Assembly (NCBI GenBank): GCA_963971425.1
Contig: OZ020520.1
Span: forward strand, 11,841,807-11,905,806
Direction of reading: 5' to 3'
From: Bryoerythrophyllum caledonicum
Taxonomy: Eukaryota; Streptophyta; Bryopsida; Pottiales; Pottiaceae
Length of the DNA: 64,000 nt
The notes below the pieces were generated by a model that had not been told where the DNA came from, ran no database searches, and saw only the letters and a program-made list of their open reading frames with translations. Each line of letters begins with the position of its first letter. Position 1 is the first letter of the stretch. This document shows, piece by piece, positions 9,706 to 58,155 of this stretch. Made by a program: the position numbers and the translations under genes.

Positions 9706-10500
9706 GCCTGCCACAATCGCCACCCCACCCGCGCCACGCCCGCCCGGCTAGGGCTACCGCTCTCCGCCTCGCCGACGTCCAGCCCTCCTACATTGGTTCC
9801 ACCTCCGCCGAGGGCCTCCACTGCACTCGCCACACCTCCGTCTCTCGCACACGACCACCAACACGACGACCGACCTGGACGCGAAATTTAGCTCGCCGCC
9901 CTATCCCATTGGTCACGCCCGATCGACTGCGAGCAGAAGGTGCCACGGCCACGTCCTCCCGCCACCCCAGCACTCGTACCCTCACCAGCCAGTCCTACAC
10001 GCCCACTCACACCTACATATCGACGCAGCCTCGACATCAGCAACGCGCCCGCAGCTCCGCAGCCGACGTACTATATACCGACACCAGCCCCCCAGATGAC
10101 GAACTCACAAGCTCATACCAAACCAGCCGCACACGCTGCTCCAGTACGAGCTGAGCTCTGAGAGCGAGACACGCCACTCGCAGTATCAGGGCCTCAGCGC
10201 GGTCGTGGGGGGAGGCCTGCAGGTGAATCTCATGGCAATCCAACAATACTGCGCCCACATGGAGTCGTCTATGGCTGTGTCCGCTGCGGCAGGTCCGGAG
10301 TCCGTGAGGCAGCAGGGGCAGCGCGGGCCGAGTGGCATCCACGGGTGGCAGCAGGGTACTGGGCCGCTTGGGCACGGGATGAGCGTGGGCTGTGCGAGCT
10401 GCGAGAGCTGACTCCAGCCGCGGCTTAGCGTGAGTGTGAGAGTGAGGGAGAGCGGGTAAGCTTAAGGCAGACAAGAAGCGGACAGCCGTGGCCCTTTCCT
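9706..10500 (-). promoter_or_regulatory. SPL promoter and 5' UTR, GC-rich
   Basis: GC-rich sequence continues upstream of the start codon to about 10.5 kb and then drops abruptly to AT-rich DNA. A minus-strand TATATAG at 10071-10077, about 365 bp upstream of the ATG, is the best TATA candidate, implying a 5' UTR of roughly 330 bp. The open frames on the plus strand across 8.8-10.4 kb follow from the high GC and resemble nothing I know. Confidence 0.45.
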
Positions 10501-17649: not shown

Positions 17650-18577
17650 CCCCTAAATGAAAAAAGTCCCAAAGTGGGCTTTTATAAATCTCATGCACAT
17701 TACCATGGTTGCAATTTATAATTACAATTCTCAAAATTGTGTACAGAGATGCAAGAAAACAAGAGGCACTTGGGAGTATGATTTTTATTCTCATCAGACT
17801 TATAAACTAAAAATTATGCCATCTCAATAAAAATTTGTCGAGTGTAGGTTTGTTGTGCAACTCCAAGAAATTTTGCTAGGAAACTCTACCAGATGTGAGA
17901 TTTTCAAAATCAACAAGTTGTATTATTTCCTTTCATATTCCCACGCTTTAGTGAAAATACGTTTTATCCCAATTCAAACATTTTCACACATTGCCACACA
18001 TTGTCCGGCAAGGTTCCCAAACAAAGTTATTTTTTTCAACATAAAACCCATGGATCTTCTTATATTTTACTTTTTATGTTTTTAAAATCAAGATGTGGGG
18101 TAAACCTTCTTATTATCCATTCAAATCATCACTCTAAACATATTAAGCTCACCAAAAAACAAAATGTGAATTGGCTTTATTTAGAACCTCCACTCTTTGC
18201 ACAATTTTTTTGAATATGCTACACCCCTTCTATATCCCTAAAATTGGTGTACAAAGAACTAACATCTTGATCAACATGATGGTATAAAATTTAGACCTTG
18301 TGTACTGCAAAACTTTGACACCAAGTGAAGTCAAAGTCTATTGATCCATTCAACGCAATGAAGAAATGAACCGTTTACTCTAACTCAAACATTATTATCT
18401 TTCAATCCGTGTGGTCAAAGGCCATAAAATTAGGTGAGAATGTAACTTAATAAGATTTGATTGAGACCCTACAATTAAAACTAGAAATAATTGTTTATGT
18501 TTCCTTCACTACTCAATGCACTAAAATCAAGTTCTTTGAAGTAATTTTAGTGTAAATTTGTCAAAGAATTTTAGAGG
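17650..18577 (-). mobile_element. 928-bp TTAA-flanked element, copy B (inverted relative to copy A)
   Basis: It starts CCCCTAAATGAAAAAAGTCC and ends AAAGAATTTTAGAGG, with TTAA on both sides (17646-17649, 18578-18581). Colinear inverse matches to 15882-16805 run through its whole length. Confidence 0.7.
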
Positions 18578-27182: not shown

Positions 27183-28066
27183 AAAATAAATAAAATAAAT
27201 AAAATAAATAAAATAAATAAAATAAATAAAATAAATAAAATAAATAAAATAAATAAAATAAATAAAATAAATAAAATAAATAAAATAAATAAAATAAATA
27301 AAATAAATAAAATAAATAAAATAAATAAAATAAATAAAATAAATAAAATAAATAAAATAAATAAAATAAATAAAATAAATAAAATAAATAAAATAAATAA
27401 AATAAATAAAATAAATAAAATAAATAAAATAAATAAAATAAATAAAATAAATAAAATAAATAAAATAAATAAAATAAATAAAATAAATAAAATAAATAAA
27501 ATAAATAAAATAAATAAAATAAATAAAATAAATAAAATAAATAAAATAAATAAAATAAATAAAATAAATAAAATAAATAAAATAAATAAAATAAATAAAA
27601 TAAATAAAATAAATAAAATAAATAAAATAAATAAAATAAATAAAATAAATAAAATAAATAAAATAAATAAAATAAATAAAATAAATAAAATAAATAAAAT
27701 AAATAAAATAAATAAAATAAATAAAATAAATAAAATAAATAAAATAAATAAAATAAATAAAATAAATAAAATAAATAAAATAAATAAAATAAATAAAATA
27801 AATAAAATAAATAAAATAAATAAAATAAATAAAATAAATAAAATAAATAAAATAAATAAAATAAATAAAATAAATAAAATAAATAAAATAAATAAAATAA
27901 ATAAAATAAATAAAATAAATAAAATAAATAAAATAAATAAAATAAATAAAATAAATAAAATAAATAAAATAAATAAAATAAATAAAATAAATAAAATAAA
28001 TAAAATAAATAAAATAAATAAAATAAATAAAATAAATAAAAATAAATAAAAATAAATAAATAAATC
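27183..28066. repeat. (AAATAAATA)n minisatellite, about 95 copies
   Basis: A 9-bp unit is repeated essentially without error for about 850 bp. Only the last ~40 bp have one-base insertions. The unit lacks stop codons in all three minus-strand frames, which creates three long artificial open frames of alternating Leu, Phe, Tyr and Ile. None is a gene. Confidence 0.98.
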
Positions 28067-33244: not shown

Positions 33245-34630
33245 CTAATTAAGCTACGAGCTCATGTCTACCACCCTTGCACCGCAAACGGGACTCTCGA
33301 GGCATTCAAGAAAATAAGGGCGGACTGGAAGGCATGGTACAATGAACTGGACTAGTCAAGAGTTTGTTGCAAGCTCTTTGACCATGTCTTTGTGGACAAG
33401 CCGACGAGGATGTTTGGCCACCTTGGATATATCTTCAACAACACGGCTATTGTATTGCAAATTATTGGTCGTCAACGTGCTCATCCACTGTGCATTCATC
33501 AACTGCCGGAGGAAGGTGCCCCATTAACTTGCCCTTTTGTCGGAGGTTTGGCAACTTGAAGCACCAAAAAACAACACCTCCTATGAAATCCGACTTGCTT
33601 TGGCACGCCGTCCTCTGCTAGAGTCAATTAGTGTGAAGCTTTTCTTAATCAATATGAGAAAGTGACCCTGGCGCTTTTCGAATCAAGCTCCTTCTGTAGC
33701 AGACCCTTAAGTGTTGGGAATCGGTCTCTACAACAAGCCACATTGGAACACCGCTTTGCCGAGGCCAAAAAAGAAGGTGGACCACGAATGGGCCTTGTAC
33801 TTCTACGAGCAGAACATTTCGTTTGTCGTGGCCTGGTCTGCAAGTTTTAGAGAGGCGGTCAAAGAAACTGCTGACCTACATTGCGCCTATCTACCTCAGT
33901 CGTACAACAATCTCCAAAAACAACTACCGGATGAGCAGAAGAAGGAACTCTCCTATGACATGAAGTTGAAGATGGGGTCCTTTATCCATAGTTTTGGTTG
34001 CACCATCTTTGTAGATGGATTAAGCTCTATGACCAACCGGCCGTTGATGAATATTATGCAAGTGTAACCTGGTGTAGAGGAGTTCCTTGTGTCCGTAGAC
34101 ACCTCCGGGGAATTTGAGGACCACAAGTATGTAGCCAACAACATGACAAAGTACGTGGAGGTTGTGGATCCTACCAACGTCGTATAAATCTGCACCGACA
34201 ATGCTGCGGTGATGAAGAAGGCGATCAAGAAGGTGCAAGAGAGGTACTCCCACATATATTTCCACGGATGTGGGGCCCATATTATAAACCTTCTCATACG
34301 TGATTGGAGAAAGTAGGCCTGGGCCAAGAAAATTCTGAGCAAAGTAAAGACCATTGTGGACTTTGTAAAAAAGCGGCATATATATTTGGTGGTCTTCCAC
34401 TTCCATGAGAGGAACCTCTCCCCAATTAGACTAGGTGCCACGCGCTTCGCCACAAAGTATCTCATGATTGATCCATTATTGAAGATCAAGAAGGCGCTCG
34501 AGCCCACAATTGTTGACGCAAAAAGGATTGAGTATGTTAGGACATTAGGCAACGAGAAGAAGTTCAACCATCGTGAAAAGGCGAGGTACACGAAGAAAGC
34601 CATGCAATGTGAGCAGTTTTGGGGAGCATG
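33245..34630 (+). pseudogene. hAT-family transposase remnant (DUF659-type region)
   Basis: A broken reading frame on the plus strand resembles plant hAT transposases of the DUF659 type, which cut and paste DNA transposons. From 33711 one frame holds FVVAWSASFREAVKE, then SYDMKLKMGSFI, then ICTDNAAVMKKAIKKVQE and HGCGAHIINLL, and ends with LGATRFATKYLMIDPLL and YTKKAMQCEQFW. This is the family's order. In-frame stops at 34065-34067, 34185-34187 and 34314-34316 and less certain frames before 33700 show decay. The C-terminal dimerisation region is missing because a solo LTR begins at 34631, and no clear continuation was found after it. Confidence 0.72.
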
Positions 34631-35899: not shown

Positions 35900-36124
35900 A
35901 GTCTGATAAAACTAACTACGGAGTCATCTTGTTCCGAAGTCGAAATGGACGAAGTCGAAATGGACGAAGTCGAAATGGAAAGTACAACTTTTGTACTTTG
36001 ACGGCATGCTCTCTAATAAGGAACACCTTTATTAGCTCCCTATTAGTTTTGGAGCAAACATAAGAGTGTAGAAAATTATTTCCTTCCAAATTTAAAAAAA
36101 AATTCCTTGTCTTTAGTGGAAAAT
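35900..36124. other. Flank with a 15-bp triple repeat
   Basis: CGAAGTCGAAATGGA occurs three times in tandem at 35935-35979. Nothing else is recognisable. Confidence 0.7.
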
Positions 36125-36706
36125 AACGCTTCAATTCAAGTCAAAGATTTTCACATATTGCCAAAAATATAACGGGCAAGGTACCAAAAACAAAAAAGTC
36201 TTACCACATAAAACTTAGAGATTTTAACTTTTTATACTTTTGATTTTTCCACAACAATATGTGGTGTAGACCTTCATATTGACCATTTGGATCATCAATC
36301 TAAAACATATCAAGTATCTAAAAACTAAAACGTTACTTGCCCATTTTTTAGCTTCCACTACTAGCATAGTTGACTTGAATAAGGTACACCCTTTTTCTAC
36401 CTCTAACAATTGGTGTATAAGGAACTAACATCATCCTAAACTACCATTAGTAATGGATTTAGGCCTTATGTAGTGCAAAAATTTGATACCAAGTAGTGAA
36501 TAGCATGGGAGCTATGCAAGTCTTTCAATCCGTGTGGTTAAAATTTATGAAATTTTGTGGGGACATTAACAAAGAAGTATTTATTGTGATCGTACGGTTA
36601 GATGTAGAAATAAAAAGGTTTTGTCTCCATTCTGAGGCATTTTACTATAGCCTCGCGGTATTGAAGTGTTTTTGGTGCAAAAATGTCTTGGTCCTTTAGG
36701 GATTAA
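36125..36706 (-). mobile_element. Partial copy of the TTAA-type repeat family
   Basis: It contains the family landmarks in order (TTTTCACATATTGCC, CACATAAAACTTAGAGATTT, GGTGTATAAGGAACTAACATC, CTTTCAATCCGTGTGGTTAAA) and ends TCCTTTAGGGATTAA at about 36705. The other terminus was not found. Confidence 0.55.
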
Positions 36707-36958
36707 AAATGTTTGGAGGTTTAAAACTTGGTCCACACCATTTTTGTTTATACAAACGCACAAATCCTTATGAGGCTTAAGTACATCCATAATCACACGG
36801 ATTCACACCACTACTATCAAGTAGAATGTAGAGAGTACTATTCATATTTTTTTTTAGTATCCATAATGTAATACAAAAATGGGAACATACATTAAATGCT
36901 AAAAGATGAAGCATTGTAAGAAAATTGTCTTTTGGTACCGCAAAAACAAAAAATACAC
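36707..36958. other. Short AT-rich spacer
   Basis: No gene or repeat is recognised between the partial TTAA-type repeat and the RING-H2 pseudogene. Confidence 0.5.
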
Positions 36959-39245
36959 CTAGTCAATATTCATCGGGCTATAAGTAGTGCCACTCGCCCC
37001 TGCCTCGTTGTCATGTGCCCCTACGTGCATAGGGAGGTCTTCATCTGAGTCCAATACAAGTCTACGAGACGCCGATCGTGTTCTCCTCGTTGGTCCATCT
37101 TCATCCAACACGGCCCTTAGGATTTGGGATTGCATGAGCTGGTCGAGCGCTTGCCGTGTCCCTGGACTATGCACATCGAGCAAGAAGTCGATTTCGTCAT
37201 TTCAGAAAATTTCTTTCCACTCTGATTCCGATAATTGTCTTAGTTTTTGCGGGTCCGGTTGGTCAACGTCGTGAGAAATGCGATCCCCGTTGTCGTCTGT
37301 GATGCAAACTCCGTCAAAGCCTCACAACCATTGCCGTGGATGAGGTCTGAAACGAAATTGCTCCCCGTTCTCGTCCGAATGGCCGTTAAAGCATTGGTAC
37401 AAGAAATTTCGTTTTCCTTGACCGTATTTGTCCTTTAACGGGATCAAAATTTTTGCACACCCGAACAATCTGCTCCGGGTCCCTTTCCCAACCCCACTCG
37501 TTTGAGAGGTGCATCTTATCCAACGAGTGCATCTTCAGTTTCCAGCTCCACACCAAATCCTTTCCCCACATATGTGATTGATCATGAGCGTTCGTCACAT
37601 TGAACTCCCAATGCGGGGGCACGTATGGAACTAATTCAAAAAGTTCGTACAATCGCTCGTGAAAATGGGCCTTGCACAATGAGCACTGCCGGCGTACGAC
37701 CATCAAGCTAATCAAGCAAAATAGATGGTACAAGTGCTCACAAGTGCCTAGATGCATCCCACCTTCTGGACCAAATGGGTTTAGACAAATTGAGCAAGTC
37801 GTACCGTCGGATACGAAATTCAAAGGTTGTGGCCACAATAACATGGGGTTGCCCCGATTATCGAGGGTAGATGAAACCTCCTTTTTGAAATCCCATTTGT
37901 AACGGGACCAATCGATGGTTGTTTGCCCACCGACGGTTTTCACCATTGCCATTTCATCCATCTTGAAAAGATCATCTACGAGGGCCCACGATGTCAAACC
38001 AAACACCCTCTCCTAGTTTTTTTCGGTATAGTTGTTGTCGATTTTTTGGAATTCCGCCACCAATTGTCGAGACCGATCGACCGTGAAGACGTAGGCCAAC
38101 TTCCATTGATAGTAATGTTCTACCAACACATCCAAGCGACTTTGTAGTCTTGAATTCTCTTCAAGCGCTTTAGCAAGCTCTTTGCCGCCGTCACCTGCCG
38201 CACCGTCTTCTTTGTTGACTTTAGCTTTGTCTGCGTTGGTAGGGGCCTCATCAAACGACAATGAATCGTCTTAGGTTGACACGTGTACAAGCCCTTCCTC
38301 CTCCCGTCGTGGATTCCGATCTTCTGTGGTCATTGTACTAGCTTGAAGGGCAAGTTGGAGCTCCTCCATATCACGTCGTTGCTGGTCAATAACAATGTTT
38401 TTATCATTGACTTCAACTCTCAACTTGCAAACCTCATCGCGCAATGACAATAGTTCTGTTGTCTTCCCTTCCAATTGGTTCAGCAAGGTTTGGATAGTGC
38501 TGGCAAAAATAGCACCAGTAGAGGCTTCTAACGTTCGATCAACAACCGCGGAGGATTGTACCTGAGCCCCAACTTCATTAACGGTATCGTTAACGACTAC
38601 GTTAACCGTCTGTTCCGCCCTCCTTCGTTTGGTGGGCGCTTGTGTCCTTTGGCTCCTTGTGATTGGAACATGGGATCCGTCAGAGTCTGTATCTGTGTTT
38701 GAGGGATCGGTCTCGTACGTGTCGACCGGTTCAGTCTTCGCCATCAATTTGCCCAATCCGCCTTCTGGATACCTCCGTGTCCCCATTGGAATCAATCCAT
38801 TCGCCGGAGAAGGAACTCTTATGCTATCTCCCATGGCTTTCAAGGTGGACCAATCCACCCTCTTGCCCAACTTTACCTCCGCATGGACACCTCGCGCAAG
38901 GAAGAGATTTACTTCATTGCGTTTGATATAAAGGATGCCGTACAAGACCAGGTATACTTCAATGCACCGATTTTTGAATGCCTCGTCGGTGCCCTTCCAT
39001 AAATTTGCCTTGTGAAAGCGTCGGTGATAATTGTGTTGCTGCTCCGGGAAAGCCTTGTCGATATGGCACCACTCGATGAAGTTTGCGCAATCCTCGAAAC
39101 TCCATGGCTCAAGAACTTCTTCCCAACCTTTAAAAGCCAATTTAACAGGATTCCGAAGCACATGCAACCTCTTCCGCTGCTTGTTTCCCGATCGTAGTCG
39201 GCTCTTGTCTCGTTCTTCTTTATTCATTTTTACCGGCGTGGCCAT
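36959..39245 (-). pseudogene. RING-H2 finger / coiled-coil protein, disrupted
   Basis: A single minus-strand reading frame runs from the ATG at 39245 to about 37430 with two in-frame stops (38271-38273 and 38013-38015), then continues in another frame, with two more stops, to 36959; together about 760 codons. The first 150 residues are basic and Trp-rich and match nothing I know. About residues 180-220 are acidic with a basic KRRRAEQ patch. 260-310 form a likely coiled coil. Near residues 450-500 a complete RING-H2 pattern appears (CSIC..C-E-H-LY-H-LFC..CSLC), usually the E2-binding part of a ubiquitin ligase. The C-terminus is acidic (VLDSDEDLP). A TATA-like motif lies about 135 bp upstream. 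Function is unknown; ubiquitin ligase activity is only inferred. Confidence 0.65.
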
Positions 39246-39845
39246 GGGTGGGGAAAATCTGAATAATATATGTGATGCGAATGGATGAAGTCCCTATTCG
39301 ACGCCCACAACCAACTCAATTAAGAGGTGGATGAAGAGGGGCTATGTGAGGCGGGGACAATTAGGGGTGTGCACGATATTATATAGACGATAGACGAAGC
39401 ACTAGTCTAGGGTCCCAGGGCAGGGGCGGGGACGTCTCCGCCCCACCCTGGGCAGGGGGGAAGTCGTCCCGGCTCCATACAGGCAGGGGCGGAGACGTCC
39501 CCGCCCTTAACAGGGCAGGGTTGGTGACGTCCCCACCCCTAACAGGGCAGGGTGGGTGACGTCCCCGCCCCTACTAGGGTAAGGGCGGAGACGTCCCCGC
39601 CCAGCTTAGGTACGTAGGGGACGTCTTCGCAAAAAGAACCCGACATCATATAAATAGAGGACATTTTGTCCTTATTTTCTACCAAGTCCACGCCCGAGGC
39701 CTCACGTGTTAGTTCGCTGTGCGGCCTGAAAGAGAGTTTGGTGGGTGATTGGGCTTGGCCCATTTATTGTACCCAGACTCTTTGCGGATTTTTTTAAAAC
39801 CATCGACTTGGAATTTCGACCACGGTAGGGAGTTGACTATCACAT
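39246..39845. promoter_or_regulatory. Shared intergenic region with divergent TATA-like motifs
   Basis: The two start codons face away from each other, 600 bp apart. A minus-strand CTATATAAT at 39378-39386 and a plus-strand TATAAATAG at 39649-39657 bracket an array of GACGTC palindromes. The spacing to the two ATGs (about 135 and 190 bp) suits promoters. Confidence 0.55.
39405..39625. repeat. Array of GC-rich GACGTC palindromes
   Basis: The word GGGGCGG(A/G)GACGTC(C/T)CCGCCC occurs about six times, in perfect or degraded form, linked by (A/C)AGGGCAGGG. Each is an inverted repeat centred on GACGTC, an ACGT-core element of the type bound by plant bZIP factors. Confidence 0.85.
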
Positions 39846-41425
39846 ATGGCGGGAGAAGGAAGTAGGTCGATGGAGAAGCGCCCAATCTTTATGGACTTGG
39901 ATGATGTTGATGAGACGTTTTTCCGTCCAGCAACACGGAGTTGACTTCAGGATCATTGAATCCGTCGTCATCGAGCAGGAAGAGGCGGAAGAAGTCACCA
40001 AATCCGGACATGCCCCCGCACGAATACCTGGTTGAATGTAGAGGGATTGCCGTCGAATTTTACAACCGTCGGACGAGAAGGGCGTTGACGAGGAGCTATT
40101 TGACGCACAACGAAGAGGGATACCACAAGTTGACGGTTGACATGCGACACGAATTAATGTCAAACCTTGATAAATCTGAGAAATTTAATAATTTCTCAGA
40201 TTATTGGTTGCATTCGGAGTGGTTGGACACCTTAGTGAACGCACTGACCACCAATATCGTTGCGAACTAGTGTTACGTCACGGGGAAGAGGGAGGATGAG
40301 AGCACCAGGAACCTGGAGGAGCGCGCACTAGTGGCGAAGATGAGGATGATCCAGGGCTTCGTTCAACAGTACTCTTCTTCCCGTAAGAAGAAACTAGCTC
40401 CTTGGAAAGCGACTATTGAGGAGCAAATTTTGGCTGACTTCGTTGGTGGAACTTTCAAGTGGCTTGAAAGTTGCGCTAAAGTGATTCCAATGCCAGAGCA
40501 GAGCGCGGTGGGTGGCTATGGGGCTGTACGGAAGGTGATGATAACCAAATTGGAAATCATTCCAAGTTGGATTTACTTCGCGGGAAAGACTCTGACCAAC
40601 ACCAACGAGAGGGAGAAGCGCCGAAACATCATCAACGAGGCTGGAGGATGTCCGGTAGTGCATCCAGGGATCATGAGACTTGCGTACCTCCACCTGAAAA
40701 CTATGGAAGGGTACACGCTCTGGTGGAATGGGGGATCTCTGGCTTCTTTTTGGTCCAAGTTTGACTCGAAAGTGGACAAAGCATTGCCATTTGAACGGAT
40801 TGAGATGCATCCGAATACCGGGTTGGCGATCCAAGAGCTTCGGTGGGTAAAAACTTTCCGCCAAAATCGAGAGAACCTCGCGCTATCATTGCTTGTCATT
40901 GTGGGAAAATGCCACGACGCAAATTATATACACAATGACATCTCTCCATCGAATGTTTTGCTCCACTTTGATGAGTAGAAACCTGATACGGTGTACATCG
41001 GAATTTGCGATTGGGGGCTTTCTAGTCGGGTTGTGGAGAATGAGCCATCAAGGTATGGTTATCAATTCAAGGAGGAGCTTCAACAAGAGAGAGAGGGGCG
41101 ACGGTTTGTGGCACCAGAACTGTTCTATAATTTTGGGCCGCGGGACTCCACCAACTCGCTTGAAGTCATGCAACGGCCACACCTCTACTCCAAGGCAGCA
41201 GATGCATTTGCGGTGGGTTGGATTTGTGAAATTTTTTTGAAAGAAGATTGGGACACTTCGTATTTCACCAACAAAAACACGGAGCAATATGTAAACCTGA
41301 AGCTAAAATTTACAGCGTTGCAAAAACAACTGCTCGAAGAACGGTCTTCTGTGCGAGATGTTTTAGACACATTAATGAAACCCCGCCACAACTGGACTAT
41401 GCCTCTATGTTGTTACCGACAATAG
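39846..41425 (+). pseudogene. Protein-kinase-like protein with HND/DWG motifs, disrupted
   Basis: The ATG at 39846 opens 32 codons; after a frameshift near 39940 one frame continues to 41425 with two TAG stops (40268-40270, 40976-40978), about 525 codons in all. A kinase fold can be followed: glycine loop GGYGAVRKV, a Lys in YFAGKTL, helix-C-like NEAGGCPVVHPGIMRL, catalytic loop YIHNDISPSNVLL (HND for the usual HRD, with catalytic Asp and Asn kept), metal-binding CDWGLSS (DWG for DFG), FVAPEL, and KAADAFAVGWICEIF. The ~150 residues before the kinase part are unfamiliar. The key residues kept suggest an active ancestor; the stops show this copy is broken. It is transcribed divergently from the RING pseudogene. 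Confidence 0.68.
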
Positions 41426-41836
41426 TTTTTTGTTAATTAGCTGCATTAGTTTTGCATGTGGTGGTTAAATAGGCAATACGGCATCTTCGTAGAAGAATAT
41501 GTGTACTTGGCAATTGCCATACGTTATATTTTAATCAATATTGGATACGTCCAAATCTTAAATTCTAAATCCGAGATTTGCATTTGTTCAAGCACAAATA
41601 ATTATTGATACACTAATGATACACTAAATGTGCACAAGTGAAAGAAATAAATTTATTATTTCTACAAAAATTGATACATAGTGTAGTAAATGGCATTTAG
41701 TGTCCGGTTATGTCACTACACTAAGTGCCTCATTTGCAATTGGTGTATGGGTTCACATATAGTGTATACTATAGTAAACATAAATTTTAGTTTACCAACA
41801 TAGTGTCAATAGTTAAACACTATTAAGTAACTCATG
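41426..41836. other. AT-rich flank with CACTA/TAGTG words
   Basis: An imperfect palindrome (GGCATTTAGTGT..CACTAAGTGCC, about 41692-41730) lies here. No gene is supported. Confidence 0.5.
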
Positions 41837-41990
41837 AAGGGGCGGAGACGTCCCCGCCCCATACGGGCACGGCGGAGACGTCTCCGCCTGTGCCCCGTCT
41901 GGGGCGGGGACGTCTCCGCCCTTGGTTGTGTGGGGGTGGAGACGTCTCCGCCATGCCCGTATGGGGCGGGGACGTCTCCGCCCCACCTCC
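41837..41990. repeat. Second array of GACGTC palindromes
   Basis: Four or five copies of GGGGCGG(A/G)GACGTC(C/T)CCGCC at about 35-bp spacing, the same word as in the array at 39405-39625. It lies about 400 bp beyond the kinase pseudogene. Confidence 0.9.
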
Positions 41991-42463
41991 CTCTTGCCAT
42001 TAGTCCCTGATCCTACTCCAACTTCACCCTCTCCTACGTGGCAACTATGTGGTGCCAACATGGTTGCCACGTCGCGTGTTTTTTACCTAGGTGGTAAGTC
42101 AACCCTCAGTTGACTTACTCGGACGGGCGAGAGCTCTACCGGACGGGCGAATCGGACGGACGGGCGTAGCGGACGTCCGTCCAGTATGATAACCCTGGGG
42201 ATATTGGAAACATGCCTCAAGCCTTGCTTGTTGTTGATACTGGAATATGGCTCTCTGCAAAAGAGGAGAGTATAGTTGACGCAACAAAGCGAGTTGCTGA
42301 CCAACCCTGAAAACTCCGGACCATTGGTTTGCTTCGTTGCATGGGATTTGCAATGCGGACCATGTGTTAATTTCTTGCTCATCAGATGAGTGTCAATTTT
42401 CCCATTAATGAATGAGTTTGGCACCGTTGACGCAAATAGACAATGGTTGACACAACTACTTGC
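41991..42463. other. Unassigned sequence with CGGACG motifs
   Basis: 42115-42185 contains several GGACGGGCG and GGACGTCC words. No reading frame here is convincing. Confidence 0.5.
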
Positions 42464-42889
42464 TACTACTTCAAGAAAACAAGGGTTTCTGGGAGGTCAA
42501 AATGAACGTGCATTTCATTGCTATGGACGTCAAAAGGGGCATTAACTAAAATCCGGGGTGTTGACGTGCCCTGGACATCCAAGAAAATCCGCGTGATGTC
42601 CCGAGAAACGTGTAAAATTTTTCGGGACATCCAAAACGTCGAGGTCTTTTCGAGGGCCTGGAGCGTGCCATTTGGCGTCCAACTTAGCGCCACATGGGAT
42701 TTTTGAAAATGGGCAGGGACACGTCACGATGTTTTTCATCCATAACATGTCCGCCGACGTGGGTCCGAAAAATGACATGGCATCGGCTCATGTGGCGCCC
42801 ATTCTCGGATGCTGTTGGTTGCTGATGATGTCCTCCTGGACATCATACAGAACTATTGAATGTCTACGTAGACGTACGAATAGACGTTT

Positions 42890-42975
42890 TATGGGGTGTT
42901 TCATGGAACGTTTCATGGGATGTTTCATGGGACGTTTCATGGGACGTTTCATGGGGTATTTCATGGGGTGTTTCC
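42890..42975 (+). repeat. 12-bp tandem repeat (GGGACGTTTCAT)
   Basis: About seven consecutive 12-bp units vary at the ACG/GTG/TAT position, inside the CACTA-like element. Confidence 0.9.
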
Positions 42976-43027
42976 CGGGACAATCCTTGTGCACAAGTTT
43001 GTTTGTGGGGTTGTAATTATAAACATT

Positions 43028-43345
43028 CACCTGAAACACACACAACACACTACATCACAAGACACACACTCAACAACACACACCATAACACACACAACAA
43101 CACACACACAAGACACACAACACACAACACAACACAACACACCTAACACACACAACACAAACACACACAACACACACTACAACACACACACTCACTCACC
43201 GCACACACAACCTCACGCACACATACACACATCTAAGTCTCACCTACACACACTTGAAACTACACAAACACCTCACGCGCACACACTCCACACTCACACA
43301 CACACACAACGGACATACAACTCACACGCGCACTCACTTCTCACT
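43028..43345 (+). repeat. CA-rich low-complexity tract
   Basis: Irregular ACACA/AACAC words extend for about 320 bp. The open frames across it are composition artefacts. Confidence 0.9.
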
Positions 43346-43389
43346 CGCGCATACTCAGAAAGAAAGAGAGACACAATCCCTAGCGAAGG

Positions 43390-43574
<185 letters not shown>

Positions 43575-43911
43575 GTCACGCCCTTGTTCACTCTTGAAAA
43601 AGTGAAGGGACTGCCCCCCTTGCCCATCAAGACTAGCGGGAACAGTCCCCTGCGCTGATGTGGCAGGGGTGCGTTCTCCGAGACGTCCTTTAAAAAATCA
43701 TGCTGTCCTTTTTGACGTCCTTTTTGACGTCTCAAGTGTCAGGACGTCTTCGTGGATGTCTACGTGGATCCGGCTACGTCCTCACCTGTTCAGCTTGATG
43801 TCCCAAAAAAACAAGGAATCTAGGCCGAGTCTTCAATCTTTTTTGACGTCTTGTGGGACGTCCAAAAATACGCGGGGGCATCTCAAAAACCCCTGTTTTC
43901 TTATAGTGTAC

Positions 43912-49030: not shown

Positions 49031-51897
49031 TGTGAGCCAAATAAACCGCCCCCTAATGGGGTGGCTTATCTTGAACACAAGATCCTACATATGGGATGCA
49101 GCCCCTTGTGCAAACATACTTAACCATTCATACAAGCATGATGACCCAAGGCGTGGTCACTTAAGAGGGTTCATTAATAATTAGTGATGTGATGGCTGAA
49201 TTCAGCCTTAGGTTGAATCCAACCTTTAGACAAGCGTAAATTCCGCCTCACAGCTCCGTTTCCAATGTTTTAAAGCTCCATTAGGTTCAATTTCGCCTTG
49301 TGAACTTGATTAGCACCTTAACCACCAATTCCAGGCCCAAGTGCAGCCCTGACAGCAGCAACCAGCAGACAGGCTCCTCTTTTTATGTTAAAAGTTTAAT
49401 TCTTCATTATCTTCGTGATTATGACTCCGTTTTTTACGTTTGTTTTTTGTATTCTTATTAGTTTTTCTTGCTTAACACGATGGCAGCCTTCAATTAACCG
49501 GTTGACTCAATCCGGGACTCACAGCCAACGACCAGCAGTGCACACTTAACATACATGTTTATTCAAAATCGTGCACCACAATTCACGTGTATACCACATG
49601 CATTCACACAAGTGGCCCTACTCAAACACTATACCATGCATGAGCCTCCAGCTGCCTTCACTTACTATTGTAGATTAAACCGATTGTTTGGTTGAGTTGA
49701 TAGCAAACCCTAATCCTAGTGAAAATTTGGCAGCGCTTCCGCGTGATTTTTTGTAACTAGAAAATTTAGGGTTCCTTCTCCACATGCAATCAAGAAGATA
49801 ATGAATCAATTGGGAGAGGAAGAAGGCTCCCTGATCTAGCTCAATTCACCCTCTGCCGTGTTCGTGGTCGTTCTTGTGCTGTGGTCGTCCTCCTCTTCTT
49901 GGTGCTCTTCACTCCACAGCCCGTATCTTCGTCGTCACAACTCCGATCCGTACGTTCTTGATCTTGTTGGAAAGCCAACACTCTAATCTATCTAGTCCTA
50001 AAGTCTTAGCTCGATCGGACAAGAACTCTGCGACTGACAAGGGAAGATCTGAGGAGGCCAAGTGAGATCCGCCACCGCTCCTCCAGCTGGTCGTCCTCGC
50101 TCCGCAGCTCGTATCTTCGTCGTCACAGCTCCGATCCGTACGTTCTTGATCTTGTTGGAAAGCCAACGCTCTAATCTATCTAGTCCTAAAATCATAGCTC
50201 GATCAAACAAGAACTCTGCGACTAACAAGGGAAAATCTGAGGAGGCCAAGTGAGATCCGCCACCGATCCTCCAGCTGGTTGTCCTCGCTCCGCAGCTTGT
50301 ATCTTCGTTGTCACAGCTCCGATCCGTACGTTCTTGATCTTGTTGAAAAGCCAACGCTCTAATCTATCTAGTCCCAAAATCATAGCTCGATCAAACAAGA
50401 ACTCCGCTACTCACAAGGGAAAATCTGAGGCCGTATGAGATCCGCCACCGATCCTCCAGCTGGTCATCCTCGCTCCGCCGCCTGTATCTTCGTCGTCACA
50501 GCTCCGATCCGTACGTTCTTGATCTTGTTGGAAAGCCAACACTCTAATCTATCTAGTCCTAAAATCTTAGCTCGATCGGACAAGAACTCTGCGGCTGACA
50601 AGGGAAGATCTGAGGAGGCCAAGTGAGATCCGCCACCGCTCCTCCAGCTGGTCGTCCTCGCTCCGCAGCTCGTATCTTCGTCGTCACAGCTCCGATCCGT
50701 ACGTTCTTGATCTTGTTGAAAAGCCAACACTCTAATCTATCTAGTCCTAAAATCTTAGCTCGATTGGACAAGAACTCCGCTACTGACAAGGGAAAACCTG
50801 AGGCCGTATGAGATCCGCCACCGATCCTCCAGCTGGTTGTCCTTGCTCCGCCGCCCGTATCTTCGTCGTCACAGCTCCGATCCACACGTTCTTGAGCTTG
50901 TTGGAAATCCAACGTTCTAATCTATCTACTGTCCTATTTTCGCAACGATTGAATCAAATTCCAGCCCACAGGAGGGGGAAATCTGAACCCTACCTCTCTC
51001 TCTCCTTCCACACACCTCTCTCGGTTTCCTAGCTCCTACCACACACCTCTCTAACTCCTACCTCCCACACTTCGAATGAGCGCCCTCCAAGGGGGTAACC
51101 CCAAGGCCCTTGCTCCATTCTTTGTTCCCAAGGTCGTTCCCTTCGTCGTTCACAGCCGCCATTTTGGGTGGGCATATTAATGGTCACACTAAACAATAGT
51201 AACTAAAAAGCTAATAAATCACTAGCCACCCTTGCATTTAACACAAGTGGGTGTCCCACTAACCAAGGAATATCTAAATCTAAACTTTGACTCCATGCCA
51301 CATGTGTGTGCATGATCTCAATAAGTGGGCTATTAGCTAATTTTCAAAGGTGCAAAAATCTAATTTAACCTACCTAAATTGAATTCCCCTTGCTTGGGGT
51401 AATTCCTAATTTACTTAGTGACTGATGAGGATTCTTTTCCACTTCTTTTTGGACCCTATTGACTATTTTTTTAAGGGCTTTTAACGCCCCATTCTTTTTT
51501 CTTTTCTCCTCACCATCCTCCTTCTTCTTCTCCCATTTTTTTGGTTTCGTGATTTCTTCATCGTGACCGAATACGGTCTACAACTCGATAGGAGGTAAAT
51601 TCTTCTCCACCACTACTCATTTTAATTCTTTTCTAATTTTCTTTTGTCTTTTTTCCCTTCTCTCTTTGCTTTTCTTTTCTGGTTTATTCCCTTTTTTTTC
51701 TTCCTTTTTGGCTAACTACATAAATTCCGCGATTGCCCATAAATGGCTCCTCTTTTAGTGAGGGGAAAGGCCACTTGGCCATTTTAATCAAAAAACCACG
51801 AGCTAGTCCATGAGATAACCCATTTTCACCACTCATTAGCCTTAATGGACCCGACGTGAGGTCCATTCATCACCGTGAGCCGTTTTTGCGGCTCACA
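49031..51897 (-). repeat. 3' LTR of the gypsy element (2867 bp)
   Basis: TG..CA ends with an 8-bp terminal inverted repeat (TGTGAGCC/GGCTCACA). It contains six tandem units of about 187 bp and is exactly 561 bp longer than its partner, which equals three units. Confidence 0.97.
49874..50990. repeat. ~187-bp tandem array in the 3' LTR, six units
   Basis: Units begin near 49874, 50062, 50250, 50435, 50623 and 50808 (188, 188, 185, 188, 185 bp steps). Each contains CGTATCTTCGTCGTCAC, CGTACGTTCTTGATCTTG and TCTAATCTATCTAGTCC. The 185-bp form lacks part of GAGGAGGCCAAGTGAG. The short frames on both strands are a by-product of the repeat. Confidence 0.95.
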
Positions 51898-52149: not shown

Positions 52150-55100
52150 CTAGGGTCCCAACCACAAAGCATCGAACCTCCCTGGAAAATCCAATCTCCT
52201 CGGGTCTTGAAGGAGGAATAGCATTCCCGGTCTCAATGACCGGACCTTGTTCCGTTTGTCGAAGGCAATCTTCCTCCTTCGTTGGATGGCTTCCATGTTT
52301 TGGGCGCTCCACCGGCGCATCTCGTCGAGCTCCTCCAATCGTTCTAACCGATCGGCTAAGGACGTGGCCATGGACCATCGTTCGGTCACGGCCATTCGCA
52401 GAGAGGGGATCTCGAACTCGATGGGTAAAATGGCTTCAATGCCATACACCAATGAGAAGGGAGTAGCAGGGGTGGTCACTTTGAACGTGGTTCGGTAAGC
52501 CCATAACGCGGCGGGGAGTTTCGTGTCCCAATCCCTCTTGGAATCGGTGACCGTTTCCCTCAAGATGTTTACGAGGGTTTGGTTGACCCATTCGGTGTGC
52601 CCATTGGTTTGAGGGTGATAAGGGGTGGTCTTACGATGATTGATCTTGAACCGGTTGGTCATGGCTTCGATCACCTCGTTCAAAAAATGCTTCCCCCTAT
52701 CACTAATGAGGATTTTGGGACATCCGAACCGGGTAATGATTTGCTCGAACAAGAATTTGGCCGCATGATTAGCATCATTCGTTTTCACGGCTCGAGCCTC
52801 GGCCCACTTGGTGAGATATTCAGTTGCCACCACAATGTGCTTCATCCCACTAGAAGAGCTCGGGTGCACTTCCCCCACATAATCAATACCCCACTTCTCG
52901 AATGGGACCAAGGGCAAGGATACTCGTAGTGGCATGCTCATTCGAAGGTCATTTTGGGCATACCGTTGACAAGCGTCGCATCGCTTGGTGTACTCATGGG
53001 CGTCTTGGAATAATGTGGGCCAATAATAACCCGCGCGAAGGACTTTTTGGGCTGTCAAGGTCCCAGTCAAGTGTCCTCCACACGCACTGTCATGGCAGGC
53101 CGAGAGGATCGTGGGAATTTCCACGGGCGTCACACATCGACGTAGCAAGCCGTCCACCCCCCGACGGTACAGTTTGCCCCCTACTATGGTAAAGTGGCGG
53201 CTATGGAGGCGAACCTTTCGACGCTCGTTTTTGGACAATGAGTCCGGTAGAAGGTGGGTGGTTAGAAATTCGGCCACCAGATTGTACCATGAAGGAATGG
53301 AGGATACTTTGAACAAGTCCTCATCTATCAAGGCCTCATCAATGGGGACAATATCGGGTTCCTCTGAGAGGCGTGAGAGGTGATCCGCTTGAAGGTGCAT
53401 CCGCCCCGGGCGGTATTCCACCGTGTAGTCAAACTCCTCTAAAAGTAAGACCCACCTCGCTAAACGACCACTCAAGTCCGCCTTGTTGACAAGGTATTTG
53501 ATGGCCATGTGATCCACGTAGAATACTACGCGGTTGAGTAACAAGTAGTGGCGAAACTTCTTGACCGAAAAGACCATTGCCAAGCACTCACGTTCGTTGG
53601 TGGTATAGTTCTTTTCGGCGGGGTTCAATTGCCTACTTGCAAAAGCAATGGGGTGGTCTTTGCCATTAAGGCCCACGGGTTGGCACAATGTGCTTCCCAC
53701 AGCCACCGCCGAGGCATCACAAAAGACGTGGAAGGGCAATTCCCAATTCGGGGGCCTCAAAACCGGGTAGGTGGTTAATTCCCCCTTCAAGACGTCGAAG
53801 GCCTCTTGGCAATGGGGAGTCCACTCGAACCTTACGTTCTTTTGGATAAGCCTAGTGATGGGCATGGCCTTCGTGGCATAGTCATGGATAACCTCCCGGT
53901 ACCACCCTATGTGTCCTAGGGTTTTTTGTATCTCCTTGACATTCGTGGGGGGGTGTAACTCCACGATAACCTTCACTTTATCGGGATCCGGCTCTCGACC
54001 ATCCTTGGATACCACGAACCCTAGCAAGACTCCCCGTTCTACGGCAAGGAAGATTTTCTCGGGATTGAGGGCAATACCGGTGCGCCTACACCGTTCAAAA
54101 CTTTGTCTCACGCACGTGAGGTGGTTGTCCTTCGTGGACTGGGTGCTAAAGTCATCAATGAAGACGGTCATGGACTTATGCAAGAGATCTGAGGAGGCAT
54201 AAGTCATGGCCCTCTGAAATGCGGAAGGGGCATTACAAAGCCCAAAAGGCATGACCAAATAGATGAACGTGCCCCATGGGGTAGTGAAGGCGGTCTTGTG
54301 ATAGTCCTCTGGGGCAATGGAGATTTGATTGTAGCCCGAGTAGCCATCCATAAACGTATAAAGATCATGACCACCTACCTCCTCCAAGATGGTGTTGATA
54401 AATGGCAAGGGGAAGTGGTCTTTTTGGGTGTGATGGTTGAGTTTCCTATAGTCAATGCACACCCGTAGCTTCCCGTTTTTCTTTTTAACCAACACCATGG
54501 GGGATACCCAATCGGATATCTCTACGGGTTTAATGAACCCTGCTTGGAGGAGCTTCTCCAATTCGGCCTTGACAATGAGCTGTAGGTTAGGATTCATACG
54601 CCGCTCCTTTTGTCTAATGGGAGTAGTGCCTGGGAGAAGGGGGATGTGATGTTGTGTTACCGCCGGGGGAATGCCCTTGAGGTCTTTGTACGACCACGCA
54701 AAAATGTTGCCAAACTCGACCACTAGTGCTTTGTATTTCACCATCTCCTCCTCGGTCAACCGAACGCCCACCTTAATACTACGGACCTCATCCTGCTCAT
54801 GAGAAACCACCATCAACTTCCAATCATCATGATGAACGTGTGGTTGTTGGGTAGGTCCCTTGTACCAATCATTCGGAACTTGGGGATATGTTGCCCCCGA
54901 ACCACTAGCTAGGATACCGGTGGATGTCCTGCGGAAGTGGAGAGATGGGTTGAGAGGGCCTTCGTCTCCCAAAACCTCCAATTCGTCCCCTTGCGTGCCC
55001 TCCACATCCATTCCAAACACCGCCGAGGGTTCTAGGTCATCGAGGAGGGGAACTAGGCTAAGTTCCAACCCGGTTTCCCTTCCAATGAGCTCAGTCTCCA

Positions 55101-58100
55101 TGAAATGCACGGACATGGCTTCATCCGCGCTCGAGGTAGGGTGCTCCCTCAACCAGTCTACAAATTCCCCGGTGGGAACCCACTCATAAAGGCCCGGTCC
55201 CATGCTTTTAAATGGCATTACGTGGGCCTTCGAGGGTTGGGCTCGATCCACCGCCTTGTGGGGCGCAAACCTCACCCGTTTGGGAGGCTCCTTTGATAGT
55301 ACCTCTTGTGATTCATCCTCCGACGAGCCCATGCAACCACGGCATATTCCTAGCCTACTTGGTTGGATATGGACTGTAGTAGGGTTCTCCGGTGGACCAT
55401 AGGTGATGTTTGGTTTTGGCCCCCCCCATTCTACCGTGGCATTGGCAATCCGCAACCAAGGCCTACCTAGTAGCAATGGGTATGCCTCCTTGTTGGAGTG
55501 CATTCGGATGATTTGGAAGGTGAGGGAATACTCTACCCCCCCCGTGGTCACTTTACAACCACTAATTTGGCCTAACGGGGCCTCCGAGCTTTGATTAGCC
55601 ATGTTGATGATGTACGGTGAAGGATCTGTGATGTCAAGGCCTAGTTTCTCCATGGTTGAGAGGGGCATGATGTTCAACCCACTACCACCGTCTACTAGTA
55701 CATTAGGTACGATCTTGTCCACAATCGAAACCTCGATTTGTACCGCCTTGACCTCGATATTGGGGTGTGCAGATTTAACCCGAGCCGCCAGCCTGACCCT
55801 TGCCCTAGGCCTTCGCTTCACCCGGGTACCCGATCTAAGGGACTTCCTCATGGGTGGTGACACCTCTAATAGTTGGGCTATGGTGATGTCCGCTTTGAGG
55901 CGACTCAAGTCCGCCCATAAATCGTAAGGCCCCTCTCCCCCTTGCTTCTCGACACGCGGGAACGTGTTTACCTCGGGACTAGGGATTGATGGACCTTCCC
56001 ATGGCTCTTGGGGGGTGGACAAGGGTGTTCGAGACCTAGGTATCCCACGGGGGGACTCAAAGTTGGCTCGTTTAGTGCCTTCTACCGCCTCCTTGGTGGT
56101 ATCGTTTAGGTCAGAGAAGTGAGGTGAATCCTCTTCTGAGGTCTCACTTTCCTCTGGTATAGGTGGAGGGGGGCTTGAGTACCTAGGCTCCCGTCGGCTA
56201 GACCGAGTCTGGACTGCCAATGCCGGTAACTCACAAGTTTTTGCTTCCTTGGTTGTGCTCACCTCGTGGAAAACTACATTGAGCTCAGTGAGGGAGGGGC
56301 TGTGGGTGGACACGATCTCACTTGACATGGTGGCATAGCGCACATCTTGTGGGCCTTGGTTTTGTTGGCCCCCGTGGTTCTGTCCTAGGTTTTGTTGGCC
56401 CCCGTGGTTCTGCCCTAGGTTTTGTTGGCCCCCGTGGTTCTGCCCTTGGTTAATAGGGATGTACCCGGCCTTGGTATTCACCCCCATTGGAGGAGTCTGA
56501 TTTTGGCGATGATTGTTGTAGTCGTAGTAGAGACTAGGAGGCCTAAGGGTATTATCGGAGGTGGGGTTACGCGCACCTCTCAAATGATCTTGGGCTTGTT
56601 GAGGATAGTTCCCTGGTGGGAAGGGCATGGGAATTACCTTGTCCGGTCTACGACATACTTGGGTAGGGTGATTACCCCCGCAGTTACCGCATACCACCCC
56701 ACTTTCGACCCAACATTGCCCTGGTGCGTGTCTCTTGCCACACGGTTGATGGATTTCATACCGTGGTCTCGGAGGTCCCCCATAACCTTGGCTTGGAGAT
56801 GCATAGCCTTGAGGCACGTAGCTAGTTACTGTCGGTGGTTGGTTCCTATGGGGAGGCACATACGGAGGTTGAGAAGCTTGGTGCTGGGGTGCTGCCACCG
56901 GAGTGGTACAAAAAGGGCTGGTGTGGCCTGGTTGACCACATTGAGTGCACCATAAGCCCGAAGCATGTCTACCGGATTCTATGGGTGGAGGCGTGGGGTT
57001 AGGGACTTGGTTCTTAATCAAGAAGGCCATTTGGTCTTGCATGGCCTTGATTTGTTGAGCTAATTGATCCTGGAAGCCCTGTTGGCCTTGAAGGATTTCG
57101 TTCTTCATTTCCTCCTTCCATGTGCCCCGCTCCTCATGATAGGTGAGCTGAGGAAGGGCTACTGGTGGCCTAACGTTCAAGGGTGGGGCGTAGTAGTTCC
57201 ACGTAGGAACTTGTGCGCCTGTGGATCCTTGGTTACGTTCTAAGACTGGTCCCTTACCCTGGGCATGGATGGGTATGAAACTAGGAATATGGTGATCCTC
57301 CTTCCTCCACATGCGCTCTTGGTCTCGATCCACCTGTTCTATTAGCCTAGCTTGTGCCTTGGCCTCATCTAACGATGCAGGGCGGACCTTCAAAATCTCC
57401 CTAATGGTTCCCTCATTGTTGAACCCTTGGATAAAGAACTGGGTTAAGGTGTCATTGGTGAGGAGGTTTCCCACGAACCTTGTAACCACCAGGTCGAATC
57501 TCCTAATGTATGTCGTGATATCGTCCCCTGGACCTTGGCGTAGCGCGGCTAGGGCTGTGAGGGCATTACTTTGACCTACTTTGGGTCTAAAGTGCTCCAA
57601 AAAGGCCCTCATGAGGCTATCCCAGTCCTGGAAGGTATTGGGAGGGTGGTTCCTATACCACTTGTAAGCGGCATCCTTTAAGATACACGAGAACCACACT
57701 AGGAAATACCCGGTGTTGGTGATGAGACAAGTAGTGAGGAGCTCTAGAAACCGTTCCACATGTGCGGAGGGGTCTTCATCCCTAGTTCCTCTAAACGTGG
57801 GCAAATTGGGTGGCATAGGCGCCGCCTGTAAGCCCTCGGGTACTACAATTGGTAAACCCCTTGGCTGAACCAAGGGGTTGATGGGAGGCCGAACCGGAGG
57901 TGGCCCTCCAGAGGCCATGGTAGGGGCTGAGGTGTTGCCACGTGGACTAGTGGTGTTGGTGGTGTTCACTGGATCAAATGCAGGGATAAGGAAAGATGGG
58001 GGAAAAAGAAGGGGAGGAGCTGGGATAGCCTCTAGCTGAACCTCCAAGAATCCTTCCGCCGTGTCCTCAGTGAGTTCCCTAGACCTAGTCCTTTCACTCG

Positions 58101-58155
58101 CCGGTTCCCACGGTGGTGTGAGGGAAGGTTTCTGGGACCTTGTGGCACGGGACAT
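52150..58155 (-). CDS. Gypsy gag-pol polyprotein (2001 residues to a premature TAG)
   Basis: One frame encodes all retrotransposon functions. Capsid-like gag covers about residues 120-290 (YKWYRNHPPNTFQDW). Zinc knuckles lie at 403-416 (CTQCGQPGHTSPFC) and 489-501 (CGNCGGNHPTQVC). A 10-residue unit GQNHGGQQNL is repeated three times at 571-600. The protease motif LVDGGSGLN is at 820-828. Reverse transcriptase spans about 1190-1370 with LRVCIDYRKLN and catalytic FIDDF (1332-1336). RNase H follows (FCDASAVAVG, NERECLA, YVDHMAIKYL). Integrase has an HHCC finger and the D,D,E core (WGIDYVG, LISDRGKHF, TEWVNQTL). Gag and pol share one frame without a shift or internal stop. The start is the first ATG about 1.5 kb after the 5' LTR. 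The TAG removes about 35 C-terminal integrase residues. Confidence 0.96.
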   Translation of the reverse strand: MSRATRSQKPSLTPPWEPASERTRSRELTEDTAEGFLEVQLEAIPAPPLLFPPSFLIPAFDPVNTTNTTSPRGNTSAPTMASGGPPPVRPPINPLVQPRGLPIVVPEGLQAAPMPPNLPTFRGTRDEDPSAHVERFLELLTTCLITNTGYFLVWFSCILKDAAYKWYRNHPPNTFQDWDSLMRAFLEHFRPKVGQSNALTALAALRQGPGDDITTYIRRFDLVVTRFVGNLLTNDTLTQFFIQGFNNEGTIREILKVRPASLDEAKAQARLIEQVDRDQERMWRKEDHHIPSFIPIHAQGKGPVLERNQGSTGAQVPTWNYYAPPLNVRPPVALPQLTYHEERGTWKEEMKNEILQGQQGFQDQLAQQIKAMQDQMAFLIKNQVPNPTPPPIESGRHASGLWCTQCGQPGHTSPFCTTPVAAPQHQASQPPYVPPHRNQPPTVTSYVPQGYASPSQGYGGPPRPRYEIHQPCGKRHAPGQCWVESGVVCGNCGGNHPTQVCRRPDKVIPMPFPPGNYPQQAQDHLRGARNPTSDNTLRPPSLYYDYNNHRQNQTPPMGVNTKAGYIPINQGQNHGGQQNLGQNHGGQQNLGQNHGGQQNQGPQDVRYATMSSEIVSTHSPSLTELNVVFHEVSTTKEAKTCELPALAVQTRSSRREPRYSSPPPPIPEESETSEEDSPHFSDLNDTTKEAVEGTKRANFESPRGIPRSRTPLSTPQEPWEGPSIPSPEVNTFPRVEKQGGEGPYDLWADLSRLKADITIAQLLEVSPPMRKSLRSGTRVKRRPRARVRLAARVKSAHPNIEVKAVQIEVSIVDKIVPNVLVDGGSGLNIMPLSTMEKLGLDITDPSPYIINMANQSSEAPLGQISGCKVTTGGVEYSLTFQIIRMHSNKEAYPLLLGRPWLRIANATVEWGGPKPNITYGPPENPTTVHIQPSRLGICRGCMGSSEDESQEVLSKEPPKRVRFAPHKAVDRAQPSKAHVMPFKSMGPGLYEWVPTGEFVDWLREHPTSSADEAMSVHFMETELIGRETGLELSLVPLLDDLEPSAVFGMDVEGTQGDELEVLGDEGPLNPSLHFRRTSTGILASGSGATYPQVPNDWYKGPTQQPHVHHDDWKLMVVSHEQDEVRSIKVGVRLTEEEMVKYKALVVEFGNIFAWSYKDLKGIPPAVTQHHIPLLPGTTPIRQKERRMNPNLQLIVKAELEKLLQAGFIKPVEISDWVSPMVLVKKKNGKLRVCIDYRKLNHHTQKDHFPLPFINTILEEVGGHDLYTFMDGYSGYNQISIAPEDYHKTAFTTPWGTFIYLVMPFGLCNAPSAFQRAMTYASSDLLHKSMTVFIDDFSTQSTKDNHLTCVRQSFERCRRTGIALNPEKIFLAVERGVLLGFVVSKDGREPDPDKVKVIVELHPPTNVKEIQKTLGHIGWYREVIHDYATKAMPITRLIQKNVRFEWTPHCQEAFDVLKGELTTYPVLRPPNWELPFHVFCDASAVAVGSTLCQPVGLNGKDHPIAFASRQLNPAEKNYTTNERECLAMVFSVKKFRHYLLLNRVVFYVDHMAIKYLVNKADLSGRLARWVLLLEEFDYTVEYRPGRMHLQADHLSRLSEEPDIVPIDEALIDEDLFKVSSIPSWYNLVAEFLTTHLLPDSLSKNERRKVRLHSRHFTIVGGKLYRRGVDGLLRRCVTPVEIPTILSACHDSACGGHLTGTLTAQKVLRAGYYWPTLFQDAHEYTKRCDACQRYAQNDLRMSMPLRVSLPLVPFEKWGIDYVGEVHPSSSSGMKHIVVATEYLTKWAEARAVKTNDANHAAKFLFEQIITRFGCPKILISDRGKHFLNEVIEAMTNRFKINHRKTTPYHPQTNGHTEWVNQTLVNILRETVTDSKRDWDTKLPAALWAYRTTFKVTTPATPFSLVYGIEAILPIEFEIPSLRMAVTERWSMATSLADRLERLEELDEMRRWSAQNMEAIQRRRKIAFDKRNKVRSLRPGMLFLLQDPRRLDFPGRFDALWLGP

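Follow-up and report, generated by a model that had tools for sequence, protein, structure and literature searches.

A broken RING-H2 and kinase gene pair

In the stretch of Bryoerythrophyllum caledonicum DNA analysed here (64,000 nucleotides, hereafter the window), a gene for a RING-H2 protein and a gene for a protein kinase lie head to head, with their starts 600 base pairs (bp) apart and an array of GACGTC palindromes between them. Both genes are broken, and the best explanation for the pair, in which we have high confidence, is that it is the left-truncated right half of a large DNA transposon of the hAT superfamily. The RING-H2 gene occupies 36959-39245 on the minus strand and the kinase gene 39846-41425 on the plus strand, together filling the range 36959-41425 of the original prediction. 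Its further claims of HND and DWG motifs in the kinase, of a TATA-like motif for each gene, of the GACGTC array and of similar lesion loads (five per 761 codons in the RING gene, three per 526 in the kinase gene) were likewise borne out. The comparisons below draw on the window's own genome (437 Mb), from which 20 copies, 10 kb each, were fetched as the best matches to 38700-39600, so that the RING 5' part and the array are present in them by choice; six copies, A to F, were extended leftwards.

The RING gene of the window is interrupted by stops at codons 325, 411, 641 and 681 and by a 1-bp insertion near codon 599, and a fully open frame, of 761 amino acids (aa), is found in one of 18 aligned copies (copy E, L022). 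The RING-H2 finger itself lies at 37671-37799 on the minus strand (Pfam stretch 70-112 of a 206-aa piece at 37386-38006, with motif positions taken from the open copy) and follows the pattern C-x2-C ... C-x-H-x2-H-x2-C ... C-x2-C, all eight ligands being present both in the window and in copy E. The N-terminal domain (38781-39245, minus strand; hereafter the N-domain) is common to a short protein encoded further left in fuller copies, with 71% identity over 155 residues. That protein, 218 aa in copy A, is the counterpart of the N-terminal part of the RING protein without the RING, and most of the best 150 copies of its gene have the same 242-aa stop-to-stop frame, many of them with internal stops. 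A search of solved structures with an N-domain profile gave no match at E 5, and single-sequence structure prediction of the N-domain (mean predicted local distance difference test score, pLDDT, 44.7; helices only) was unusable. The RING gene's 3' region contains an AT-rich dispersed repeat (36111-36494) that recurs at 16201-16487 and 17946-18326.

In the window, the kinase gene is disrupted near codon 24 by a 1-bp deletion and further along by two stops, at codons 142 and 378. With the TAG read through it scores 38.2 bits against PF00069 (cut-off 31.7), while its two open pieces alone reach 14.0 and 15.4 bits, far under that cut-off. A fully open frame of 526 aa is present in four of the 18 aligned copies (B, L016, L024 and L026); the L026 kinase scores 34.4 bits, and that of L016 retains the glycine loop, lysine, HND, DWG and APE. 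Among the 126 scored kinase matches in the genome, 36 have frames of at least 507 aa that are stop-free across the match, by hand count. Against solved structures the read-through kinase finds a weak match to VRK1 (E 4e-4) and an open kinase none at E 1e-3; single-sequence structure prediction of the kinase was unusable (mean pLDDT 31.7). The idea that all stops came from C-to-T changes was dropped as evidence, since any stop is reachable by such a change.

Between the genes, the RING gene has its TATA-like box at 39379-39385 (minus strand, 133 bases before the gene start) and the kinase gene has its own, TATAAATA, at 39649-39656 (plus strand, 195-198 bases before the gene start), both being present in 15 of 15 aligned copies. 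The first array, at 39416-39626, lies between the two boxes and consists of 32-bp units with the palindrome GGGCGGAGACGTCCCCGCCC. It varies in length, and the intergenic region measures 537-726 bp among 15 copies. The RING and kinase genes thus have a divergent promoter in common, made up of two TATA boxes around the GACGTC array. A second array with the same palindrome (41839-41984, in the right subterminal region) was overlooked in the original prediction, as was the terminal inverted repeat ending at 42197; out of 27 GACGTC motifs in the whole window, the first array holds six and the second five.

A high-copy hAT element with four genes

The right-hand part of the transposon runs from the truncation point at 35962 to 42197 and is 94.1% identical to full copy A over 6251 aligned columns. 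Of the 20 fetched copies, 15 begin to match the window exactly at 35962, and in 16 the match stops at 42196-42199. The window copy thus keeps its right end, with the right terminal inverted repeat at 42185-42197 on the minus strand (TATGATAACCCTG in the window, TATGACAACCCTG in copy A), and has lost its left half, the left end lying about 12-13 kb from the right end in other copies. When terminal repeats around the gene pair, a check proposed with the original prediction, were searched for in the window alone, nothing above chance appeared, because the left end is absent from the window copy; full copies elsewhere have both ends.

Of the six extended copies, A, B, C and F run as far as one common left end, unlike D and E; on the right, copy C stops a few bases short of the end. 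The element is 12856 bp long in copy A, 12638 bp in copy F and 12145 bp in copy B. Fuller copies have terminal inverted repeats CAGGGTTGTCATA, and both ends of copy A start with CAGGGTTGTCATA, identical over 13 bp. Flanking 8-bp target duplications are perfect in copy A (ATCGTACC, 8/8) and copy B (ATTTAGAC, 8/8) and match at 7/8 bp in copy F. Exact terminal-repeat ends number 428 in the genome, against 0 for a reversed-pattern control. Ten convergent left/right pairs were hand-picked among 100 listed of these 428 ends, one of them being copy F; the set excludes one convergent pair made of two right-type ends. Six of the nine further pairs have 8/8 duplications, one has 6/8 and two have 2/8, compared with a mean of 2.3 matching bp (maximum 7) when ends among these nine were wrongly paired. 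Over all 12 end pairs tested, a perfect 8-bp duplication is found in eight.

The transposase gene of copy A starts at 5978 of L029 on the minus strand and extends for about 1177 codons when read across two stops. Its product has a DUF659 domain (107.1 bits, cut-off 34.7) and a Dimer_Tnp_hAT domain (27.6 bits, cut-off 21.4); a BED-like CxxC stretch is visible by eye at the N-terminus, where no Pfam BED hit was obtained up to E 1. Elsewhere in the genome there is an open transposase frame of 1175 aa, stop-free across the match. Its ends, its target duplications and its transposase all identify the element as a hAT transposon. A second hAT transposase remnant lies in the window at 33711-34067 (plus strand) and shares 31% identity over 97 residues with the element's transposase; it adjoins TTCCGG-rich DNA at 34.6-35.4 kb that is also found, at 69%, in the right flank of copy A.

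The four copies traced as far as their left end (A, B, C and F) each have four intronless genes in one and the same order, with the transposase, the short N-domain protein and the RING protein encoded on one strand and the kinase on the other. From left to right, copy A thus comprises the left end, transposase (minus), 164-bp tandem repeats, short gene (minus), RING gene (minus), first array, kinase gene (plus), second array and right end. The 164-bp tandem repeats (L029 6593-7000 and L018 1-343 in copy A) vary in number among copies. The same head-to-head order and array, which the original prediction had suggested looking for elsewhere, recur with a whole kinase in 17 of the 20 fetched copies, the kinase being partial in one and lost from two. 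Linkage extends beyond these: for 67 of the 126 scored kinase matches (a lower bound), a match to the short gene lies behind, on the complementary strand, at a median of 5.0 kb, and for 49 (also a lower bound) there is a transposase match, at a median of 6.9 kb. Random placement gave a mean of 0.2 (maximum 2) for the short gene and 0.18 (maximum 3) for the transposase, and wrong orientations gave 1 and 0, and 1 and 1, respectively.

Copy numbers are lower bounds, as each genome search scored the best candidates only: the best 40 of 1447 for 38700-39600 (all at least 91% identical), 126 of 1767 for the kinase, 150 of 2921 for the short protein and 131 of 2082 for a transposase piece. The scored kinase, short-gene and transposase copies form a single high-copy family with 90-100% identity, and the element is present in this genome as hundreds of copies or fragments.

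The palindrome is a feature of the whole element. The extended motif G[AG]GACGTC[CT]C occurs 13 times in copy A, 21 times in copy F, 15 times in copy B and 10 times in copy C, with means of 0.02-0.05 in shuffled elements, and there are none in the 4.1-4.9 kb of flanks per copy searched for these four. The motifs are clustered close to both ends (in copy C only at the right one), in the interval separating RING from kinase, and upstream of the other two genes, at distances of about 300 bp for the transposase and about 200 bp for the short gene. This distribution suggests a single control signal that serves the entire element. The original prediction was right to see in the two window genes one unit with shared control, and right in the transposon that it considered as their carrier. 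The description as transposon cargo was right in kind and incomplete in extent, as the unit is half a hAT element that also has a transposase and a fourth gene.

Selection, possible functions and alternatives

Between the RING protein of copy A and the short protein, 136 of 218 residues are identical, with a synonymous divergence (dS) of 1.08, a nonsynonymous divergence (dN) of 0.25 and a dN/dS of 0.23. We take the N-domain to have been under long purifying selection. Within the family, whose expansion looks recent, ratios of nonsynonymous to synonymous variants (N/S) were calibrated by the element's own noncoding changes, taking the majority base as ancestral and excluding gapped codons. RING variants in single copies have an N/S of 0.93 of neutral (p 0.27), and those common to several copies an N/S of 0.60 of neutral (p=0.0015).

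The best account is a multi-gene hAT element that its accessory proteins would help to multiply. The transposase would move the element by cut and paste, and the common palindrome would be the element's own control site, read by an element-encoded protein, for which the N-domain of the short and RING proteins is a candidate, or possibly by an ACGT-binding bZIP factor of the host. Working in trans, the RING protein (a putative ubiquitin ligase) and the kinase would target either the transposase or silencing factors of the host, and in this way would let the family multiply as VANC does for VANDAL transposons, by different chemistry. In its fullest form this would be a plant transposon with its own regulon, in which the short and RING proteins bind the element-specific palindrome at every promoter and close to the ends, host silencing is disabled or the transposase controlled by means of ubiquitination and phosphorylation, and the short protein is an antagonist; this version we regard as rather doubtful. 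We give better prospects, if still somewhat below even, to a reading in which a host bZIP factor alone recognises the array, the accessory proteins having other sites of action and no DNA-binding role. Plant bZIP proteins bind an ACGT core, which GACGTC contains. The placement of the arrays at gene starts and near the ends, with none in the flanks, fits an element-encoded binder as well.

Several observations weigh against accessory genes that work for a hAT element. The RING is under the Pfam cut-offs (27.0-27.9), narrowly so in the window (26-27 bits, 26.9 at best) and with 23.5 bits in copy E, and the open kinase of L024, at 29.7 bits, is under the PF00069 cut-off. Constraint on the kinase is weak (N/S 0.82 for singletons, p 0.06; 0.72 for shared variants, p 0.08), and its singleton and shared variants do not differ (Fisher p 0.62). 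Mean copy divergence is 3.8% for the RING gene and 3.7% for the kinase gene, not below that of noncoding stretches (3.1% and 2.0%); the higher gene divergence could possibly be explained by base composition, the genes being richer in C and CpG, for which only the calibrated N/S count among the divergence measures allows. The transposase frame is broken in all four left-end copies, whose transposase variants are too few to inform (shared, 7 nonsynonymous and 2 synonymous), and the duplication is absent in two of the 12 end pairs. RING stops 411, 641 and 681 are common to the window copy and L009, about 50 kb apart, and stop 568 is common to copy A, L019 and copy F. Copies with a broken RING have thus apparently multiplied, so that the RING is not needed in cis; they seem to have done so by transposition in trans or by duplication. 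The sole search outside this genome, in viral contigs, returned 1 and 12 pattern matches in protein scans, none confirmed, and 0 in two pattern scans.

Many of the same points would suit capture of passengers without function, in which a hAT element took up a host RING and kinase as neutral cargo, as in Pack-TYPE elements: fully open frames are confined to one of 18 RING and four of 18 kinase copies, kinase variants are near neutral, the genes diverge no less than noncoding stretches and sublineages with a broken RING multiplied. We nevertheless consider such capture unlikely, given the N-domain dN/dS of 0.23 at a dS of about 1, shared RING variants below neutral, genes that are whole and not fragments, conserved TATA boxes, a palindrome at each promoter and a transposase within the same element. 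Among the genes, functionless capture is likeliest for the kinase. As a separate matter, L018 (C9:748000-757999) and L019 (C9:631000-640999), about 117 kb apart, have RING stops 568 and 764 in common and identical short-gene proteins, and are likely a segmental duplication.

The original prediction had also allowed for a conserved host module, here a divergent ubiquitin ligase and kinase pair of which the window would hold a decayed duplicate. Kinase and RING folds are typical of host proteins, and CpG in the gene region is normal (0.94-1.01), compared with 0.47 both for the left flank and over 10-30 kb. Nothing observed favours a host module as such, and we judge it very improbable: the copies scored belong to a single abundant family, 90-100% identical, and are linked to terminal repeats and a transposase, and a pattern search for diverged kinase relatives with an AGY serine gave 0, a narrow test that leaves such relatives possible. 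A remnant of an integrated large DNA virus is another reading, to which the lack of introns and the palindromic repeats between the genes might point, kinase and RING genes being common in giant viruses. It is hardly credible, and is refuted as the main account by the hAT ends, target duplications and transposase.

Neighbouring features and known systems

To the right of the element lies a CACTA-type non-autonomous element (42467-43908), with ends, recognised by eye, of TACTTCAAGAAAAC... and ...GTTTTCTTATAGTG, 3-bp TAC duplications at 42464-42466 and 43909-43911, and GACGTC motifs of its own at 43682-43857. A Gypsy-type polyprotein of 2001 uninterrupted aa at 52150-58155 (minus strand) is placed between similar 188-bp tandem repeat blocks (49912-50928 and 60536-60991), which suggests a young long terminal repeat retrotransposon. 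Further left, a 9-bp repeat, AAAATAAAT, at 27183-28065 (98 copies, 99% match) yields three long open frames, and a piece of an SBP-domain gene at 8758-9723 (minus strand; 63.5 bits) is GC-rich at third codon positions (0.89) and lies close to AT-rich DNA. The SBP family is not known outside green plants and algae, in keeping with a host that is a plant or a near relative of plants.

The usual picture of a hAT element is of two ends that enclose a transposase. The present element resembles known members of the superfamily (Ac/Ds, Tam3 and the DUF659-type plant hAT elements) in its CAGGG-type ends, 8-bp duplications and DUF659 and hAT dimerisation domains. For a plant hAT element it is unusual to carry both a kinase and a RING protein and to have one palindrome at each promoter. 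Ac is 4.6 kb long (PMC3260210), unlike this element of 12.1-12.9 kb with three further genes. Among the titles and abstract openings of a partial collection, none described a hAT element that carries a kinase or a RING; a 2026 review on how plant transposons capture genes does not mention kinase, ubiquitin or hAT in its main text (PMC13317346), and a 2019 review of giant transposons mentions neither hAT nor kinase (PMC6431247). ToxhAT was set aside as a precedent, having since been reclassified away from hAT (PMC12506042).

Pack-hAT elements have plant hAT ends around non-transposase coding DNA, and Pack-TYPE elements are non-autonomous and carry gene fragments (PMC8903248). In contrast, whole genes and a transposase gene lie inside all four left-end copies here, though the transposase frame is broken in each. 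Fungal DNA transposons provide a closer parallel, as they can carry an extra enzyme gene in conserved order, with the kinase gene of IS3EU opposite the transposase; fungal hAT7 has 7-bp duplications and carries TET/JBP, and in the available text the kinase named is an alpha-kinase, not PF00069, and no RING is mentioned (PMC12730594). The element shares with these TET/JBP and alpha-kinase transposons the extra enzyme genes, the conserved order and, with IS3EU, a kinase opposite the transposase, and differs from them in its plant host, in its combination of a PF00069 kinase with a RING protein and, compared with hAT7, in its 8-bp duplications.

For the palindromes, En/Spm, of the CACTA superfamily, offers a likeness, as TnpA, a regulator that the element itself encodes, binds repeats located both at its ends and in its promoter; repeats occur at ends and promoters here too, in an element that is hAT and whose own repeat-binder is a candidate only. 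Part of the 'kinase' and 'RING' genes annotated in this plant may be transposon genes, and the open RING and kinase frames in present-day copies make the use of ubiquitin and kinase chemistry by a transposon against its host directly testable. Another close comparison is with the VANDALs of Arabidopsis, MuDR-type elements (PMC12730594) whose VANC anti-silencing proteins bind tandem repeats in noncoding regions of the transposons (PMC10398659). As there, an accessory gene lies inside the transposon and repeats lie in noncoding regions; unlike there, the transposase is of hAT type and not MuDR, repeat binding and anti-silencing are proposed roles, and no kinase or RING is named for VANDAL in the available parts of those sources. 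What the comparison leaves is a high-copy plant hAT element with three further genes, two of them for apparent signalling or degradation enzymes, and the same palindrome upstream of each gene. If the proposed role is right, it would add a further counter-defence chemistry of transposons, beside VANC-type binding and TET/JBP demethylation.

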